NCBI GenBank assembly: GCA_022825855.1
Contig: JAJDWB010000009.1
Coordinates: 248,001-312,000 of the forward strand
Direction: 5' to 3'
Source of the DNA: Dehalococcoidia bacterium
Lineage (GTDB): Bacteria; Chloroflexota; Dehalococcoidia; Bin125
Length of the DNA stretch: 64,000 nucleotides
Shown: positions 1,704 through 10,360 of the stretch, one piece after another
How positions within the stretch are numbered: position 1 is the first letter of the stretch
Layout: each line of letters starts with the position of its first letter
Made by a program: the position numbers and the translations under genes
The notes under the pieces: generated by a model
Databases searched by the model: none
What the model saw: only the letters and a program-made list of their open reading frames with translations
What the model was told of the DNA's origin: nothing

Positions 1704-1958
1704 CTAGAGGACTTCGGCAATGGCCACGGCGGCGGCGGCGATGGTGATGCCGATACCGGTCTGAATCGCCATGGCGCGCCAGAAGAGCTTCTCGATGCGC
1801 TCATTGAGTTCGTCTCGGAGCCGGTCCAGGTCGCCCCTCGTGGCGAGGTCGGCGGTGCTGCGTTCCTGGGTCTGCACGATGGCGCGGGCCTGAGGCTCGG
1901 GGATGCCGCTGGCGACCAGTTCGTCGAAGGCCTGAAGGCTGCTGTAGACCATGGGCAT
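1704..1958 (-). CDS. small coiled-coil membrane protein (DUF1640-like)
   Basis: I start this protein at ATG 1958, directly behind a GGGGGA ribosome binding site, which gives 84 residues. A longer frame upstream would be antisense to the leader of the next gene and has no such site. Order: a short helical segment with a UBA-like 'ASGIPEPQARAIV' motif, a heptad-like segment (DLDRLRDELNERIEKL), and one C-terminal membrane helix (IQTGIGITIAAAAVAIAEVL). The layout matches DUF1640/CCDC90-type proteins. A similar protein lies at 42859-43203. Function is unknown. The gene sits 24 nt upstream of recF on the same strand. Confidence 0.65.
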   Translation of the reverse strand: MPMVYSSLQAFDELVASGIPEPQARAIVQTQERSTADLATRGDLDRLRDELNERIEKLFWRAMAIQTGIGITIAAAAVAIAEVL

Positions 1959-2094
1959 TCCCCCGCATCTGCCCCGCGATGCACTCAATTCTAGAGATTG
2001 AGTCAATCTCCGAGCAGGCCCGCGGCAGCGGGCGTTGTTGTATGATACGCGAAACCCGTATGCGGAACTCCCCGCCAACCTCTGGAGTGTTTTG

Positions 2095-3141
2095 ATGGCC
2101 ACGATTCAGCACGATGTCCCCGGGATCAACCTCGATTGGCTCAACGTTGATACCGAACAGGGGCTGGAGGTCGAGACGGGGCGCAAGGGCCTCCGGCTCG
2201 AGACGATCAACCAGATGACCTACGGGGTCGACGACCGCGACGAGGCGCGGACGCGTCAGTGGGCGCCGCGCGGCGCAGAGGCCGACCAGCGCTCGCCGTC
2301 GAGCAGTGTCCAGTACACGAACAAGGCGGACGTCTGGACCGAGTCGGCGATGCTGCTCTACGAAGAGGCGCTGCAGCGCCAATGGTCTTCGGCGCGGGAC
2401 ATCCCCTGGGACACGATCGACGAGCTGCCTCCGGACCTGGAGCGGGCGATGTGCACGCTGTGCACGTTCCTGACCCAGGTGGAGTTCATCGCCGGCGACG
2501 TGCCGGGTCGCTTCCTGGAGCAGATTCACCCCGAGTTCTTCGAGTCGCAGCTCTTTCTGGGCACGCAGCTCATGGACGAGGCGCGGCACCTGGACGTATT
2601 CCGCAAGCGCACGCTGATCAACGGCGGCGGGATGTCGGGCGCGGGACTGGGCGCGGTGCAGTTGCTCAGCTCGGACGACTTCACCGAGATGACGGCGCTG
2701 CTCCACCTCGTGGGCGAGGGATTCGTCCAGACGCTGTTCCGGATGGGCGAGCTGATCGCGCAGAACGAGGCCGAAAAGAAGATGTTCCGACTGTCCGCGC
2801 AGGACGAGTCGCGGCACCTGGCCTTCGGCGTGACGCACCTGAAGTACACCGTCGAGACCGAGCCGTGGCGCAAGGAAGAACTGCACCACATCCTCGACAT
2901 GCAGGAAGCGCTGCTGACGCAGTCGCAGCAGACCTCGCTGACGACCAACCCGCTGACCGGCGAAGCGCTGGCGATCCTCTCCGGCGGCGGCATTGAGCAC
3001 CTCGACGAGGGCTACAACATGGTCATGCTGATGCGCAAGAAGCAGTTCGTCGAGTACGCCCACCGTCTGGACGTGATCGGACTCGACCGCCACGACCGCT
3101 TCGCGCCCGAGGTGCTGGAGCTGGTGGGCGAGGACAACTAG
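2095..3141 (+). CDS. ferritin-like di-iron oxidase (R2-like)
   Basis: 348 residues from ATG 2095, which follows a GGAG. It is a ferritin-superfamily four-helix protein with a complete carboxylate/histidine ligand set for two metals: Glu130, Glu162-x-x-His165 (DEARH), Glu208 and Glu238-x-x-His241 (DESRH). The spacings resemble ribonucleotide reductase R2, R2-like ligand-binding oxidases and multicomponent monooxygenase hydroxylases. No RNR large subunit is in the window, so an oxidase or oxygenase role is as likely as RNR R2. The next gene downstream (105 nt away, same strand) is a paralogue that lacks nearly all of these ligands. The substrate is unknown. Confidence 0.8.
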   Translation: MATIQHDVPGINLDWLNVDTEQGLEVETGRKGLRLETINQMTYGVDDRDEARTRQWAPRGAEADQRSPSSSVQYTNKADVWTESAMLLYEEALQRQWSSARDIPWDTIDELPPDLERAMCTLCTFLTQVEFIAGDVPGRFLEQIHPEFFESQLFLGTQLMDEARHLDVFRKRTLINGGGMSGAGLGAVQLLSSDDFTEMTALLHLVGEGFVQTLFRMGELIAQNEAEKKMFRLSAQDESRHLAFGVTHLKYTVETEPWRKEELHHILDMQEALLTQSQQTSLTTNPLTGEALAILSGGGIEHLDEGYNMVMLMRKKQFVEYAHRLDVIGLDRHDRFAPEVLELVGEDN

Positions 3142-3246
3142 TCCTCAGTCCGCGGCGAACGAGACCACGAGATACCCGCCAACGGCCGCGCCGCACGCGC
3201 GGTCGTTGTCGATCCACAGGACGCAGAGACGAATTCGGGAGCAGCC

Positions 3247-4485
3247 ATGGAACTGTCGACGACGACCAAGGCGCGAGCCAAGCGGGCCGGCTGGTCGGAC
3301 GAACTGATCGAACGAATCGAATCGTCCGCGGCGTCCGACGGACAGATCGAAAATCTGGCGCGGGGCGAGTTGCCCGAGGCGCGGATCAACGGCTGGCTCG
3401 ACTTCCTTGAGCAGCACCCCGACAACCCGTTCGCCAAGGCGCCGTTCAACATCTTCAACTCGCCGGCCGAGATCGGGCTCACGGCGACGCCGGGCGAGGA
3501 CGGCCTGCGGCTGCGCGACATCAACATCGGCAGCTACGGGATCGTGCCGGACCAGTGGGACCTGCCCAACGACGCGCCGCGCGGGACCGAGTCGACGGGG
3601 CTGATCATGGCTGCCGGCTACTCGATCTTCGACAAGGCCGAGGTCTGGTCGGAGAACGCCGTCGACCTGTACGAGGACGCGATCAAGGATCGCTGGGCGC
3701 CGGCCACCGATCTCGACTGGGACCACGGCATGGAAGAGATGCCGGAGGACCTCGAGCGGGCCTTCGACCAGATCTGCACGATCTATTCGAACAACGGGCT
3801 GGTCGAGCAGAAGATCATCGGCCGCTGGCTGGAGGAGATCTCCTACGGCTTCCACGAGGTCAAGCTGTTCCTGGCGACGCAGGCCTACGACGCCGGCCGC
3901 AAGGTCGAAGTGCTGCGCAAGCGGGCGCTGGCCAACGGCGGCGGTCTGGGCAAGGCGCCGCTCGGTCAGATCTATCGCGGCTGGTACGCGGGCCTGACCT
4001 TCACCGACATGATCATCGCGCTCAACGTGGTCTACAAGAGCTACGAGGTCTCGCTGTTTGAGGCGGCGGCGGAGTGGGCGCACTCCGACTTCGACCGCGA
4101 TATCTTCGAGCGTCTGGCGGCGGACTCGCGCCGGCACCTCGACTACGGCCTCGGCCACCTGGAGTGGTACGAGCGCTACAAGCCGGAGTCGGAGAAGCGG
4201 CTGGGCATCCAGTTCCTGCGGGCCGAGGCGGCGATGGTTCAGGAAATGCGGCTCTCGACGAGCGAGCGCGAAGCGCTGATCGTGTTGTTCGCCGGCGGGG
4301 TCGAAAACCTGCAGGCGGGCGTCGACAAGCTCAAGACCCTGCGACAGCGTCAGTACGACGACTACCTCAACAATCTCGCCTCGGTCAACTTCGACCGGCC
4401 CACGGTGCACCCCGGACTTGCCGGCCAGATCGTCGACCCGCTCGAGGGCGGCGTCGTTGCAGTCCGCGCAGTCACGCAGAACTGA
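3247..4485 (+). CDS. degenerate ferritin-like paralogue lacking metal ligands
   Basis: 412 residues, with GGGAG before ATG 3247. From about residue 120 it aligns with the preceding protein: WSENAVDLYEDA matches WTESAMLLYEEA, and RKRALANGGG matches RKRTLINGGG. The metal positions are changed: Glu130 becomes Gly184, Glu162 becomes Ala216, His165 becomes Lys219, Glu208 becomes Lys264 and Glu238 becomes Ser294. Only the last histidine (His297) remains. About 80 extra N-terminal residues precede the shared fold. It probably cannot hold a di-iron centre and may be a structural partner of the active protein, as yeast Rnr4 or the beta subunits of multicomponent monooxygenases are. That role is inferred. 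Confidence 0.75.
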   Translation: MELSTTTKARAKRAGWSDELIERIESSAASDGQIENLARGELPEARINGWLDFLEQHPDNPFAKAPFNIFNSPAEIGLTATPGEDGLRLRDINIGSYGIVPDQWDLPNDAPRGTESTGLIMAAGYSIFDKAEVWSENAVDLYEDAIKDRWAPATDLDWDHGMEEMPEDLERAFDQICTIYSNNGLVEQKIIGRWLEEISYGFHEVKLFLATQAYDAGRKVEVLRKRALANGGGLGKAPLGQIYRGWYAGLTFTDMIIALNVVYKSYEVSLFEAAAEWAHSDFDRDIFERLAADSRRHLDYGLGHLEWYERYKPESEKRLGIQFLRAEAAMVQEMRLSTSEREALIVLFAGGVENLQAGVDKLKTLRQRQYDDYLNNLASVNFDRPTVHPGLAGQIVDPLEGGVVAVRAVTQN

Positions 4486-6131: not shown

Positions 6132-6668
6132 ATGTCAACCATCCCCAGCTCGACCGTGCCCGAACCGACCTACGAAGACGGCGAGTTCGTGCCGACGCGT
6201 GATGTGCCCTTCTCCTCCGAGCTGGACGAGATGATCGCCGAGATTCGGGCCGGCAACGCGCCCAACATCGGCCGGTTCTGCGGCTTCTGTTGCGCACCGC
6301 TCGGTCGGTCGGACTACTGCGGAGTTTGCGATCTCACGACCGAGCGGGTTCCGGCGGTCGACAAGATCGACCGCGAGCTGGCGCAGATCTATCACGCCAA
6401 GCGCAAGCGCGAAGGGCTCTACGTCCACCTGGCCGCCTGGACCGGCATTCTGCTGGCGACGGCGCTTTCGATCCTGTTGATTCTCGTCCTGCCCGGTTGG
6501 ACCAAGGTGTTCGCGATCATCTTCCTGGTGCTGGGCGGGTACTTCGCCGGCGTCTTCTTCGGCAACGTGCTAGTCCAGGGCTTCGCCTACCGGGCCGGGT
6601 TGAAGATGTTCGCCCGACGCTGGGCCGAGTGGCGCGCGTCGGCGGCGGAGGCGGTCAGGACCGACTGA
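6132..6668 (+). CDS. zinc-ribbon protein with two membrane helices
   Basis: 178 residues from ATG 6132, five bases after the preceding stop. No strong ribosome binding site is present, so translation is probably coupled. After an acidic N-terminus comes a cysteine cluster CGFCCAPLGRSDYCGVC, a likely zinc ribbon. A charged helix (DKIDRELAQIYHAKRKREG) leads into two strongly hydrophobic segments (AAWTGILLATALSILLILVL and VFAIIFLVLGGYFAGVFFG). The tail is basic. I cannot name the family. The last 14 nt overlap the 3' end of the converging VWA gene. Confidence 0.65.
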   Translation: MSTIPSSTVPEPTYEDGEFVPTRDVPFSSELDEMIAEIRAGNAPNIGRFCGFCCAPLGRSDYCGVCDLTTERVPAVDKIDRELAQIYHAKRKREGLYVHLAAWTGILLATALSILLILVLPGWTKVFAIIFLVLGGYFAGVFFGNVLVQGFAYRAGLKMFARRWAEWRASAAEAVRTD

Positions 6669-8808
6669 GCGTCTTGCGGCGGTGGGTGACGAAGTCGTGC
6701 AGGACGTACTCGCCGAGCTCGTCGGGCTGGCTGTAGAAGACGCGGCCGCCGTTGATCCGGGCGACGCGGTCGACGAACTCTTTCAGGTAGTAGCTGCGGT
6801 CGAGCATGAAGACATTGATCACGATGTCCTTCTTGGTGCAGTGCCGCACTTCCTTGAGCGTCTCGCGGATCGTGATCGGCGAGGGCGGATAGGCGAAGTA
6901 GGAGCGTCCCTGCTCGAGGTGGGCGGTCGGCTCGCCGTCGGTGATCATGATCACCTGCCGCGTTCCGAGCTTGTGCTTGGCCAGCAACTGCTGCGCGATC
7001 AGCAGGGCGTGGTGCATGTTGGTGCCCAGCACCGTCTCGTCCCAGCGGACGTAGGGGAGCTGGTCGGCCTTGAGCTCGCGCGCGTAGGCGCTGAAGCCGA
7101 CCAGGTAGAGCGAGTCGCGCGGGTACTGCATGCGGATCAGGTTGTTGAGCGCCATGGCGACCTTCTTGGCCGCCTGGAAGGAGCCGCGCAGGGCCATCGA
7201 CCAGGAGAGGTCGAGCATCACCACGGTTGCGGTCTGGGTCAGCGTCTCGGAGCGGTAGACCTCGAAGTCGTCGGGAGTGAGGTTGACGGGGACCTGCGGT
7301 CCGCCTTCGGGCGCGGTGCGGAGGATGGCGTTGGAGATCGTGTCCTTGAGGTTCAGATGGAAGGGATCGCCGAACTCGTAGAGCTTGGTGTCGTCGGCGC
7401 GGTCTCCGTAGCGGCCGGTCTCGGGCACATTGTGCTTGCCGAAGTTCTGGCGCTTGAGGTTGGCGTAGATCTCGGCCAGCGCCTTCTCGCCGATCCGCCG
7501 GTTGCCGCGCGGCGTCAGCTCCCAGGCGTTGCCCTTCTTCTCCAGGTAGCCGGCCTCTTCGAGCAACTCGAGTAGCTGCTTGAGCTGCTCCAGAATCTCC
7601 CGCGATTCCTCGCCCATCAGCTCTTCGAGTTGGTCGGGATCGATGTCGTCGATGTTGCCGCCGTACTGGACCCGCTCCAGGGCGCGCTCGAGCTCGTCCA
7701 GCTGCTGCATGTCGCCCATCAGCGACATCGCGGCCTGCAGGTCGATCTCCTCCTGCCCGCGGAACGGATACTGGTTGAGCAGGTCGCGCATCGGATAGAG
7801 CGCTTCCAGGTTCTGCGCGAGCTGCGACAGTTCCTGCTCCATGCCCATCTCGCCCATCAGCTGCTGCATCATGTCGTTGAGCTGCTGACGCATCTCGCCG
7901 GGCAGCGACGACATCAGGTTCTGCATCTGCGCGGCCTGGCGCTGCATCTGTTCGACCAGCTCGTCCAGCGACTGAGGCGGGTCGTCGCCGAACATGTCGC
8001 CCCACTTGTCCATGAACTCGTCGAAACGCGGGTCCTCGCCGCGACGCTGGCGCTCCAGCATCTCGTTGAGGTCCTGCATCATCTCGCGCATCTGGTCCAT
8101 GTCGTGCGGCGACATGTCGGACATCATCTGGCTCATGTCGTTGAAGAAGCGATTCATCATCGACTGCTTCAACTGTTCCAGCAGTTCCTCGTACTTCTGC
8201 CGCGCCTCGTCGTCCTCGAACTCGTACTCCTGCAGTTCCTTGACCTGTCCGGCGGCGTCCTCGGGCAGCCGATCGATTTGTTCCTGCTTGCGCTCAAGCC
8301 GCTGGCGCAGGGCTTCCTTGAGCCGCTCCATCTCATCTTCGGTGAGCGGCGACGGTGACTGTTCCGAGGACTGCTGTGCCTCACCCCCGGCCGACTCAGC
8401 TTGCTCGGGCGCGGCTTCCTGAGCTTGCGGCTGCTCCCCAGTGGGAGGGGCGTCTTGAGGCACTTCCGGCCTCGGGCCGACCTCGTCGAGGCGGTCGTCA
8501 AGGGTGTCTCGCTCGAGGTCGAGGATTTCGTCGAGTTGCTGCTGAATGTCGTCGAAGACGGAGGAGAGGTCAAAGCGTTCGAGCTGCTGGCGGCGCTGCT
8601 GGCGCAGGCGCTGGAGCAGGTCGCGGAGGCCGTCGGTGCGATCGCCGTCGGGCGTGCGAATGCCGCGCTGCATCATGTTGCGCAGCGCCTGTTGCAGGTC
8701 GCCGAATGAGAGCAGGTCGTCTGAGAGCGACTGGAGCACCTCGTCGGCATCGAGCGCGGGGACATCCTGGGTGCCGTCCCACTGCGTGTATCGGAATCGG
8801 GTGGGCAT
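6655..8808 (-). CDS. large VWA-domain protein (MoxR partner)
   Basis: 717 residues with AAGGGAG upstream of ATG 8808. Three parts are visible: an N-terminal helical region (1-110), a very long central helical stretch rich in Met, Gln and Glu (about 150-420, for example DMSPHDMDQMREMMQDLNEM), and a C-terminal von Willebrand A domain. The MIDAS starts at Asp533-Leu-Ser535-Trp-Ser537 and continues with TNMHHA and TDGEPTAH. VWA proteins beside MoxR ATPases act as adaptors in metal insertion or protein remodelling. It lies 55 nt downstream of the AAA ATPase on the same strand. It has no signal peptide, so it should be cytoplasmic. The target is unknown. Confidence 0.85.
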   Translation of the reverse strand: MPTRFRYTQWDGTQDVPALDADEVLQSLSDDLLSFGDLQQALRNMMQRGIRTPDGDRTDGLRDLLQRLRQQRRQQLERFDLSSVFDDIQQQLDEILDLERDTLDDRLDEVGPRPEVPQDAPPTGEQPQAQEAAPEQAESAGGEAQQSSEQSPSPLTEDEMERLKEALRQRLERKQEQIDRLPEDAAGQVKELQEYEFEDDEARQKYEELLEQLKQSMMNRFFNDMSQMMSDMSPHDMDQMREMMQDLNEMLERQRRGEDPRFDEFMDKWGDMFGDDPPQSLDELVEQMQRQAAQMQNLMSSLPGEMRQQLNDMMQQLMGEMGMEQELSQLAQNLEALYPMRDLLNQYPFRGQEEIDLQAAMSLMGDMQQLDELERALERVQYGGNIDDIDPDQLEELMGEESREILEQLKQLLELLEEAGYLEKKGNAWELTPRGNRRIGEKALAEIYANLKRQNFGKHNVPETGRYGDRADDTKLYEFGDPFHLNLKDTISNAILRTAPEGGPQVPVNLTPDDFEVYRSETLTQTATVVMLDLSWSMALRGSFQAAKKVAMALNNLIRMQYPRDSLYLVGFSAYARELKADQLPYVRWDETVLGTNMHHALLIAQQLLAKHKLGTRQVIMITDGEPTAHLEQGRSYFAYPPSPITIRETLKEVRHCTKKDIVINVFMLDRSYYLKEFVDRVARINGGRVFYSQPDELGEYVLHDFVTHRRKTLSRS

Positions 8809-8863
8809 GGGCGCTCCCTTTGGCTTGCCGGGTCTCCCCTGGAGAGGGAGGGTTGCGGGCAGT

Positions 8864-10360
8864 CTAGGCGCGGTAGAAGATGCTGCCTCCGACGACGTCC
8901 TTGTTGAGGCGTTTGTTGAGATGCAGGCCTTCGAGCAGGAATTCCACGGCCGCCGCGATCGAGGCGGCGTCTTCGCCCACGTTGAGCGGCTGCAGGGCCT
9001 CGTCGAGACCTTCGATGCGGCCCACGATCGAGGCGTAGTCGCCGGCCTTAAGCGCCTCGCCGACCTCGACGGCGATGCCCGACTTGAACTCGGCGATCAC
9101 CGGTTCCAGCGTGCCGAGCTCGAAGTAGCGGCCGAAGACGACGGCGATGGCGCCGGCGATCAGCTTCTCGATCACCTTCTCGTCGGCGCCCTCGTCGACG
9201 GTCTCCAGCTCCATCTTGCCCTGCAGGGCGGGAGCGAGATGCCAGAGGTCGCAGATTCGGGGCGCGACCTGGTCCTCGCCGGCGAGGATGGCGCGGCGCA
9301 TCGCGTTGGCGGTCAGTGTTTCGAATCCGGCGATCGAGGCGCGGACGGAGACGCCGGAGCGCTGGGCCACGTCGGGGCTGCGGCGCGCGAGCCGCACGAT
9401 CTCGGCGACGATCTCGGCCATATAGTCGGGCGTGTTCAGGTTGCGTCCGGGCGCCGCCATCGGCACCGACTCCTGGGAGACGATTTCGAGCTCGGTCTCG
9501 AGTTCGGAGGGGTAGTGGGTGCGAATCTGCGCGCCGTAGCGGTCCTTGAGCGGGGTGATGATCCGTCCGCGGTTGGTGTAATCCTCGGGGTTGGCCGAGG
9601 CGACGATCAGCACATCGAGCGGCAGCCGCACGCGGAAGCCGCGAATCTGTACATCGCGCTCTTCCATGATGTTGAGCAGGCCGACCTGGATGCGCTCGGC
9701 GAGGTCGGGCAACTCGTTGATGCAGAAGATGCCGCGATTGGTGCGCGGGATCAGGCCGAAGTGGATGGTCAGTTCGTCGGAGAGGTAGCGGCCCTCAGCG
9801 ACCTTGATCGGGTCGACCTCACCGATCAGGTCGGCGATGGTGATGTCGGGCGTGGCCAGCTTCTCCCCGTAGCGGATGTCGCGCGGGACCCAGCGGATTG
9901 GCGCGTCGTCGCCCTGTTCCTCGATCCGCTGCTTGCCCTCGACCGAGATCGGAGCGAGCGGCTCTTCGAAGATCTCGACGCCGTCGAGGGTGGGGATCTC
10001 GTCGTCGAGCAGGCCGGTCAAGGCGCGGATCATGCGGCTCTTGGCCTGACCGCGCTCGCCGAGGAAGATCACGTCCTGCTCGGCCAGGAGCGCGTTCTCC
10101 AGGGCGGGGACGACGGTGTCTTCGTAACCGTGGATTTCGGGAAAGAGCGGGCCGCCGGCTTCAAGCCGCTTGATCAGGTTGTCGCGGATCTCTTCCCGGA
10201 CGGTTCGAGGTTGATAGCCGGATTCCTTCAACTGCCCCACGGTGGCCGCTCTATTGCTCACGTCGACTCCTATCCGCTCCCGACCGGCTCGCTCGAACTC
10301 GGACGGTTCCAGATCAATCGGTTGAGCGCCGGACATCGTGAAGTGCCCGCAGCGCTTCAT
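8864..10360 (-). CDS. MoxR/BchI-type AAA+ ATPase
   Basis: 498 residues. Walker A is GERGQAKS at 101-108 (the MoxR-like form with Ala for the last Gly), Walker B is IFCINE at 211-216, and sensor 1 is in ASANPED near 254-260. The N-terminal 80 residues precede the ATPase core, and the C-terminus is helical. Such ATPases work with VWA proteins, and the VWA gene follows directly. The first Met overlaps the upstream PurM-like gene by 47 nt; a second Met at 10336 would reduce this to 23 nt. Neither has a clear ribosome binding site, so translational coupling to the upstream gene is likely. Confidence 0.88.
   Translation of the reverse strand: MKRCGHFTMSGAQPIDLEPSEFERAGRERIGVDVSNRAATVGQLKESGYQPRTVREEIRDNLIKRLEAGGPLFPEIHGYEDTVVPALENALLAEQDVIFLGERGQAKSRMIRALTGLLDDEIPTLDGVEIFEEPLAPISVEGKQRIEEQGDDAPIRWVPRDIRYGEKLATPDITIADLIGEVDPIKVAEGRYLSDELTIHFGLIPRTNRGIFCINELPDLAERIQVGLLNIMEERDVQIRGFRVRLPLDVLIVASANPEDYTNRGRIITPLKDRYGAQIRTHYPSELETELEIVSQESVPMAAPGRNLNTPDYMAEIVAEIVRLARRSPDVAQRSGVSVRASIAGFETLTANAMRRAILAGEDQVAPRICDLWHLAPALQGKMELETVDEGADEKVIEKLIAGAIAVVFGRYFELGTLEPVIAEFKSGIAVEVGEALKAGDYASIVGRIEGLDEALQPLNVGEDAASIAAAVEFLLEGLHLNKRLNKDVVGGSIFYRA

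Follow-up and report, generated by a model that had tools for sequence, protein, structure and literature searches.

A conserved pair of di-iron paralogues, one retaining and one lacking its metal ligands, as putative subunits of a heteromeric enzyme in Chloroflexota

Two adjacent genes of a marine Dehalococcoidia bacterium (assembly GCA_022825855.1, 2.8 Mb), here named A and B, encode paralogues that probably assemble into a heteromeric di-iron (or Mn/Fe) enzyme, in which A would be the active subunit, B its partner, and a small third protein, C, an accessory component. The pair was found in a stretch of 64,000 nucleotides of contig JAJDWB010000009.1 (positions 248,001 to 312,000, hereafter the window). 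The ligand pattern, co-conservation, phylogeny, selection and the association with C were derived from sequence data, and the packing of A against B from a structure model, whereas the metal content, the O2 chemistry, the roles of B and C and the electron donor are what we infer. The combination of an active di-iron subunit and a degenerate copy recurs in PaaA/PaaC, MMOH alpha/beta and Rnr2/Rnr4, and its origin and the reasons for it are poorly understood. Since intact singletons and genomes with adjacent, unlinked or multiple pairs all occur within one phylum, the path from a homomer to an obligate heteromer becomes directly testable here. The family predicts an undescribed enzyme system in uncultured Chloroflexota, including a third gene that has remained unannotated.

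Gene A (2095..3141, plus strand, 348 aa) encodes a di-iron protein of the R2-like/ferritin-like type in which all the ligands are present. Gene B (3247..4485, plus strand, 412 aa) encodes its paralogue, in which the ligand positions are mostly lost and which carries an extra N-terminal helical extension of ~60 residues. The two proteins share 33% identity across 325 aa (BLASTP, E 2e-56). They are encoded in one frame of the same strand, with one TAG and 35 codons between them, and a search of the 105-bp intergenic gap (3142..3246, plus strand) for a terminator-like site found none. The window's genome (G000) contains three A-B pairs, the two others being located at C22:120664/122076 and C16:275129/276305. 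The same genome also encodes a remote R2lox/AcsF-like di-iron singleton with intact ligands and no B (C10:240640-241239; L050:9410-10255), a relative of which was found in G017 (L073).

The putative metal ligands of A in the alignment are E130, E162, H165, E208, E238 and H241, while B has G184, A216, K219, K264, S294 and H297 at the matching places, with only His297 retained; these are exactly the residues given for both proteins in the original prediction. On the plus strand, the codon of E130 (2482..2484) is aligned with that of B G184 (3796-3798), the stretch from E162 to H165 in the D-E-A-R-H motif (2578..2589) with A216 and K219 (3892-3903), the codon of E208 (2716..2718) with K264 (4036-4038), and the stretch from E238 to H241 in the D-E-S-R-H motif (2806..2817) with S294 and H297 (4126-4137). 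The order E, ExxH, E, ExxH, together with a four-helix bundle according to AlphaFold2 and PDB comparison, identifies A as a protein of the di-iron carboxylate fold. The ligand census covered a family set from Chloroflexota of 50 A-clade or basal and 44 B sequences. The E-E-H-E-E-H set was invariant in all 50 of the former. In comparison, five of the six ligands were lost in 32 of the 44 B sequences and four of the six in the other 12, the E238 position being lost in every one. A contrast as consistent as this is not a matter of chance. The replacements in B varied by lineage (GAKKSH, GALDIH, SLHDRA, AYHTLQ, QAHGAH, QYHNTH and others), so the conserved feature is the loss itself rather than any particular residue.

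The two genes also co-occur in related genomes, as expected of the pseudo-enzyme partner that B had originally been taken for; this assignment agrees with the co-conservation, the mirrored phylogeny, the purifying selection on B and the confident A:B model presented below. B was present in 33 of the 34 Chloroflexota genomes with the A clade, and the only one lacking it, G049, is 86% complete. Up to four copies of A were counted per genome, and the copy numbers of A and B were mostly equal (3/3 in G000, 4/4 in G043 and 2/2 in G277, a single-contig genome). Whenever the genes were adjacent, A was always upstream and on the same strand. Moreover, both were kept in an unlinked state in G018 and G019, as were extra copies in G035, G340, G398 and G043, so that co-retention needs more than linkage alone. 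In the phylogenetic tree, A and B formed reciprocal, mirrored clades with strong support. The mirror-tree correlation over 29 pairs was r = 0.936, a value inflated by linkage and shared ancestry, and none of 10,000 permutations was as high. The B protein of G048 was placed outside the main B clade, albeit a single origin of B was not rejected (p-AU 0.184). Unpaired basal members that retain their ligands (L111, L124, L122, L125, L126 and L070) suggest that the ancestor of the family was homomeric.

The heterodimer was modelled with AlphaFold2 as an in-silico read-through fusion of A and B (796 aa, TAG read as a residue). The alignment supplied comprised 11 further fusions of this kind and 14 rows with A alone; in trial alignments of the fused form, most B-only rows were wrongly aligned with the A half, and they were excluded. 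The fused model reached a mean pLDDT of 83.5 and a pTM of 0.86 over 796 residues, in line with the originally proposed pairing, and only the linker, the two termini and a single short loop of A had a pLDDT below 50. As a pTM of about 0.5 is estimated for two halves of uncertain placement, a defined packing of A against B is implied by the model, although its interface could be biased by the tethered construct and by homodimers of R2-like proteins among the training structures. B modelled alone gave a pLDDT of 90.1 and a pTM of 0.85 and has a fold of the R2-like/MMOH-like kind; its closest solved structures were in a near tie: a VlmB homologue (Z 22.1), MMOH-beta (21.0), an aldehyde-deformylating oxygenase (20.7) and R2lox (20.6). 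Alternatively, A might function on its own as a homodimeric oxidase like R2lox or VlmB, and B might be a separate pseudo-enzyme without stable binding to A, serving, for example, in regulation or the binding of a ligand. The basal members with intact ligands do occur as singletons and, to our knowledge, R2lox and the VlmB-like relatives work without a degenerate partner; however, the presence of B in nearly all A-clade genomes even when unlinked, the mirrored tree and the confident predicted packing on A make this explanation unlikely.

An active A and a ligand-depleted partner B also fit the distribution of the acidic residues and histidines in B. Its strongly conserved Asp, Glu and His mostly correspond to largely conserved non-ligand residues of A (as in the pairs D293/D237 and E327/E271), and the sole strongly conserved acid specific to B is a C-terminal E/D position, B333. 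Apart from B333, the conserved residues thus leave no alternative ligand set, and the intact ligands elsewhere in B, named originally as the observation that would overturn the pseudo-enzyme assignment, were not found. It is therefore very improbable that B is a second metal enzyme with shifted ligands: the B protein of the window does have Glu residues about one helical turn away from the lost positions (E187, the E222 region and E267), but these are not conserved across B, and nearly all the acids that are conserved have their counterparts among the non-ligand acids of A.

Neither A nor B reached the cut-off of any Pfam or NCBIfam family. With the R2 family PF00268, A scored 14.3 bits against a cut-off of 33.6 (E 0.026) and B gave no match. 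With the NCBIfam R2lox models (PRK08326), A scored 29.6 bits against a cut-off of 194 (E 4e-7). The Pfam family PaaA_PaaC matched neither protein at E <= 1. For the bacterial multicomponent monooxygenase (BMM) hydroxylases, there was no Pfam match and no MMOH match in the PDB profile search, and no effector or reductase genes adjoin the pair in the window; the BMM architecture of a catalytic and a ligand-less paralogous subunit is present in A/B, which is not proof of membership. When profiles were compared with PDB sequences, the best match of A was the VlmB homologue 6d9f (8.6e-7), followed by R2lox (4e-4), while B had none. Assignment of A/B to the BMM, PaaA/PaaC, R2lox or R2 families is thus not supported by these tests, and the pair appears to fall outside them. 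In the plasmid collection, neither relatives of A nor C were detected, and a basal member used as the query retrieved only remote ferritin-like matches. The literature search found no paper on the A/B family, and the passages of a review of heteromeric enzymes (PMC12141560) retrievable by search terms included none on such a pair.

Among the known systems, PaaABC(E) is the closest parallel in its mode of working. PaaA is a catalytic di-iron subunit, PaaC a subunit of the same fold that is thought to be structural, and PaaB a small bridging protein (PMC4498308). Likewise, A would be the active di-iron subunit, B the partner of the same fold and C the small extra protein in place of PaaB, and the PaaC chains 3pwq and 1otk were listed in the fold search with B. 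In contrast, the identity of PaaA to PaaC is 17% versus 33% for A and B, no PaaE-type reductase adjoins A/B, and C has no known relative in the sequence tests run. MMOH likewise combines a catalytic alpha and a ligand-less beta subunit of one fold, to the latter of which the B model is close (Z 21.0), but no gene for a gamma subunit, an effector or a flavin/2Fe-2S reductase was seen next to A/B. R2lox has the same fold and ligand pattern as A, whereas A has a degenerate partner that is apparently obligate. The VlmB-like azoxy synthase homologue 6d9f ranked first both among the PDB sequences matched by the A profile and among the structures aligned with B, yet the identity in structural alignment is only ~13-19%, and azoxy or hydroxylamine substrates are unsupported here.

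An R2 subunit (NrdB) of a class I ribonucleotide reductase (RNR) was considered as well. In E. coli R2, the radical Tyr, a feature of the canonical classes Ia/Ib, occupies the position matching F169 of A. This Phe, four residues past the first His ligand, was invariant in 21 A sequences. The PF00268 search of the genome detected no R2 above the cut-off, and the single RNR large-chain gene is located far off, on contig C10. An R2 heterodimer has a precedent in yeast Rnr2-Rnr4 (PMC4245953), where an active R2 is joined by a partner R2, and A resembles R2 in its fold and, weakly, in the sub-threshold similarity to PF00268. However, A/B has neither the radical Tyr position nor the context of a class I RNR, and a genome may contain as many as four copies of A; with no R2 gene, Phe in place of Tyr and the large chain elsewhere, the RNR reading is effectively excluded.

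The dN/dS values relative to four relatives of the same genus were ~0.11-0.16 for B and ~0.03-0.08 for A. Hence, B evolves faster than A but is under purifying selection and not decaying. That B is merely a tandem duplicate drifting to a pseudogene and held by linkage was already disfavoured and is hardly credible, its faster evolution and a frameshifted copy in one genome (G017, contig C5) being outweighed by these dN/dS values, the ancient duplication and the retention of B, in part unlinked, in several bacterial families. The copy in question (L074:1041-2335) lies beside an intact A and is split over several frames, which may reflect a decayed gene or assembly indels.

The third component, C, is a protein of ~145 aa that was found by clustering the neighbours of family genes. 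At 11 loci, its gene follows that of B, or in L111 that of a lone A; it does so immediately, except in L121 and L123, where one gene intervenes. At four loci (L056, L060, L114 and L117), B and C were together with A elsewhere. Genomes without a linked C usually encode it at another place. In the window's genome, it is located at C5:158768-159190, and the original prediction missed it because it lies outside the window. Of the undescribed oxygenase heterodimer proposed there, the combination of an active and a pseudo-enzyme subunit is supported, C has to be added to it, and the oxygenase activity is presumed. In a sample of 400 Chloroflexota genomes, C was present in all 17 strong core-family genomes, which span seven families, and in none of the 383 others (Fisher p 3e-30, with relatedness ignored). 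Sixteen of them encode B, the exception being G361 with a basal singleton only. In the wider set, C was present in 31 of 34 A/B genomes, being absent from G013, G040 and G049, and it was found once without A/B, in G024 (80% complete).

In profile searches, C was not assigned to any Pfam or NCBIfam family, nor was a relative found in the PDB. An SCP2-like lipid carrier, as its motifs might suggest, was supported by none of these searches, and PF02036 had no match in the window's genome and nine other genomes of the genus. In this genus, the C gene adjoins a ThyX-like thymidylate synthase gene and not A-B (L134:8504-10242, on contig C5 of G000). In two large-genome Chloroflexota, a Zn-ribbon protein (PF09723, FmdB-like) is encoded between B and C (L121:4360-4659 and L123:6062-6361) and is a possible fourth component.

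No reductase, ferredoxin, C or Zn-ribbon gene adjoins A-B in the window. The original statement that neither an RNR large subunit nor a monooxygenase reductase is adjacent therefore holds for the window, but has to be extended by the dicluster 4Fe-4S ferredoxin found in the clusters of two related, basal loci. Their gene orders are ferredoxin, PNPOx-like gene, A, B, C, thiolase and DUF35/ChsH2-like gene in L069, and A, C and ferredoxin in L111. Neighbours acting on CoA thioesters at related loci include thiolase, DUF35/ChsH2-like, enoyl-CoA hydratase and CoA transferase genes, along with a hydrolase. These neighbours, which differ by pair type, hint weakly at a lipid-like or CoA-linked substrate.

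In the proposed heteromeric di-iron enzyme, presumably an oxygenase or oxidase, A would bind the metals through its E/E-H/E/E-H set and activate O2. B would keep the fold without being able to form a site, and may be a partner that A requires for structure or docking, by analogy with PaaC for PaaA and MMOH-beta for MMOH-alpha, either stabilising A or shaping the docking surface. C, encoded on contig C5, would probably be the part that completes the enzyme, with a bridging, regulatory or substrate-carrying function common to the three A:B pairs. Electrons might be delivered by a soluble carrier, for which the 4Fe-4S ferredoxin of the two related loci is the best candidate. It is conceivable, if somewhat short of probable, that A, B and C represent a new class of three-part di-iron oxygenase, the architecture of which evolved apart from the methane-monooxygenase and PaaA/PaaC lineages. 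If so, several A:B pairs of one cell would share the product of one C gene, and the B protein of G048 may represent a degenerate partner that arose separately a second time.

The neighbours of the pair in the window are recF and a small ORF (minus strand), a diacylglycerol-kinase-like gene (minus strand) and a glyoxalase-fold gene (plus strand); recF and the diacylglycerol kinase are presumed assignments from reading the sequence rather than from a family search. The small ORF (1704-2102, minus strand) has a probable membrane helix at its C-end. In its longest version, it shares a few bases with the start of A, and the probable start is further in, divergent from A. VWA and MoxR-type pairs can act in the maturation of metal enzymes. 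At 6655-10360 (minus strand), 2-6 kb downstream of B, a long VWA-domain-like protein is encoded beside a MoxR/Mg-chelatase-like AAA ATPase.
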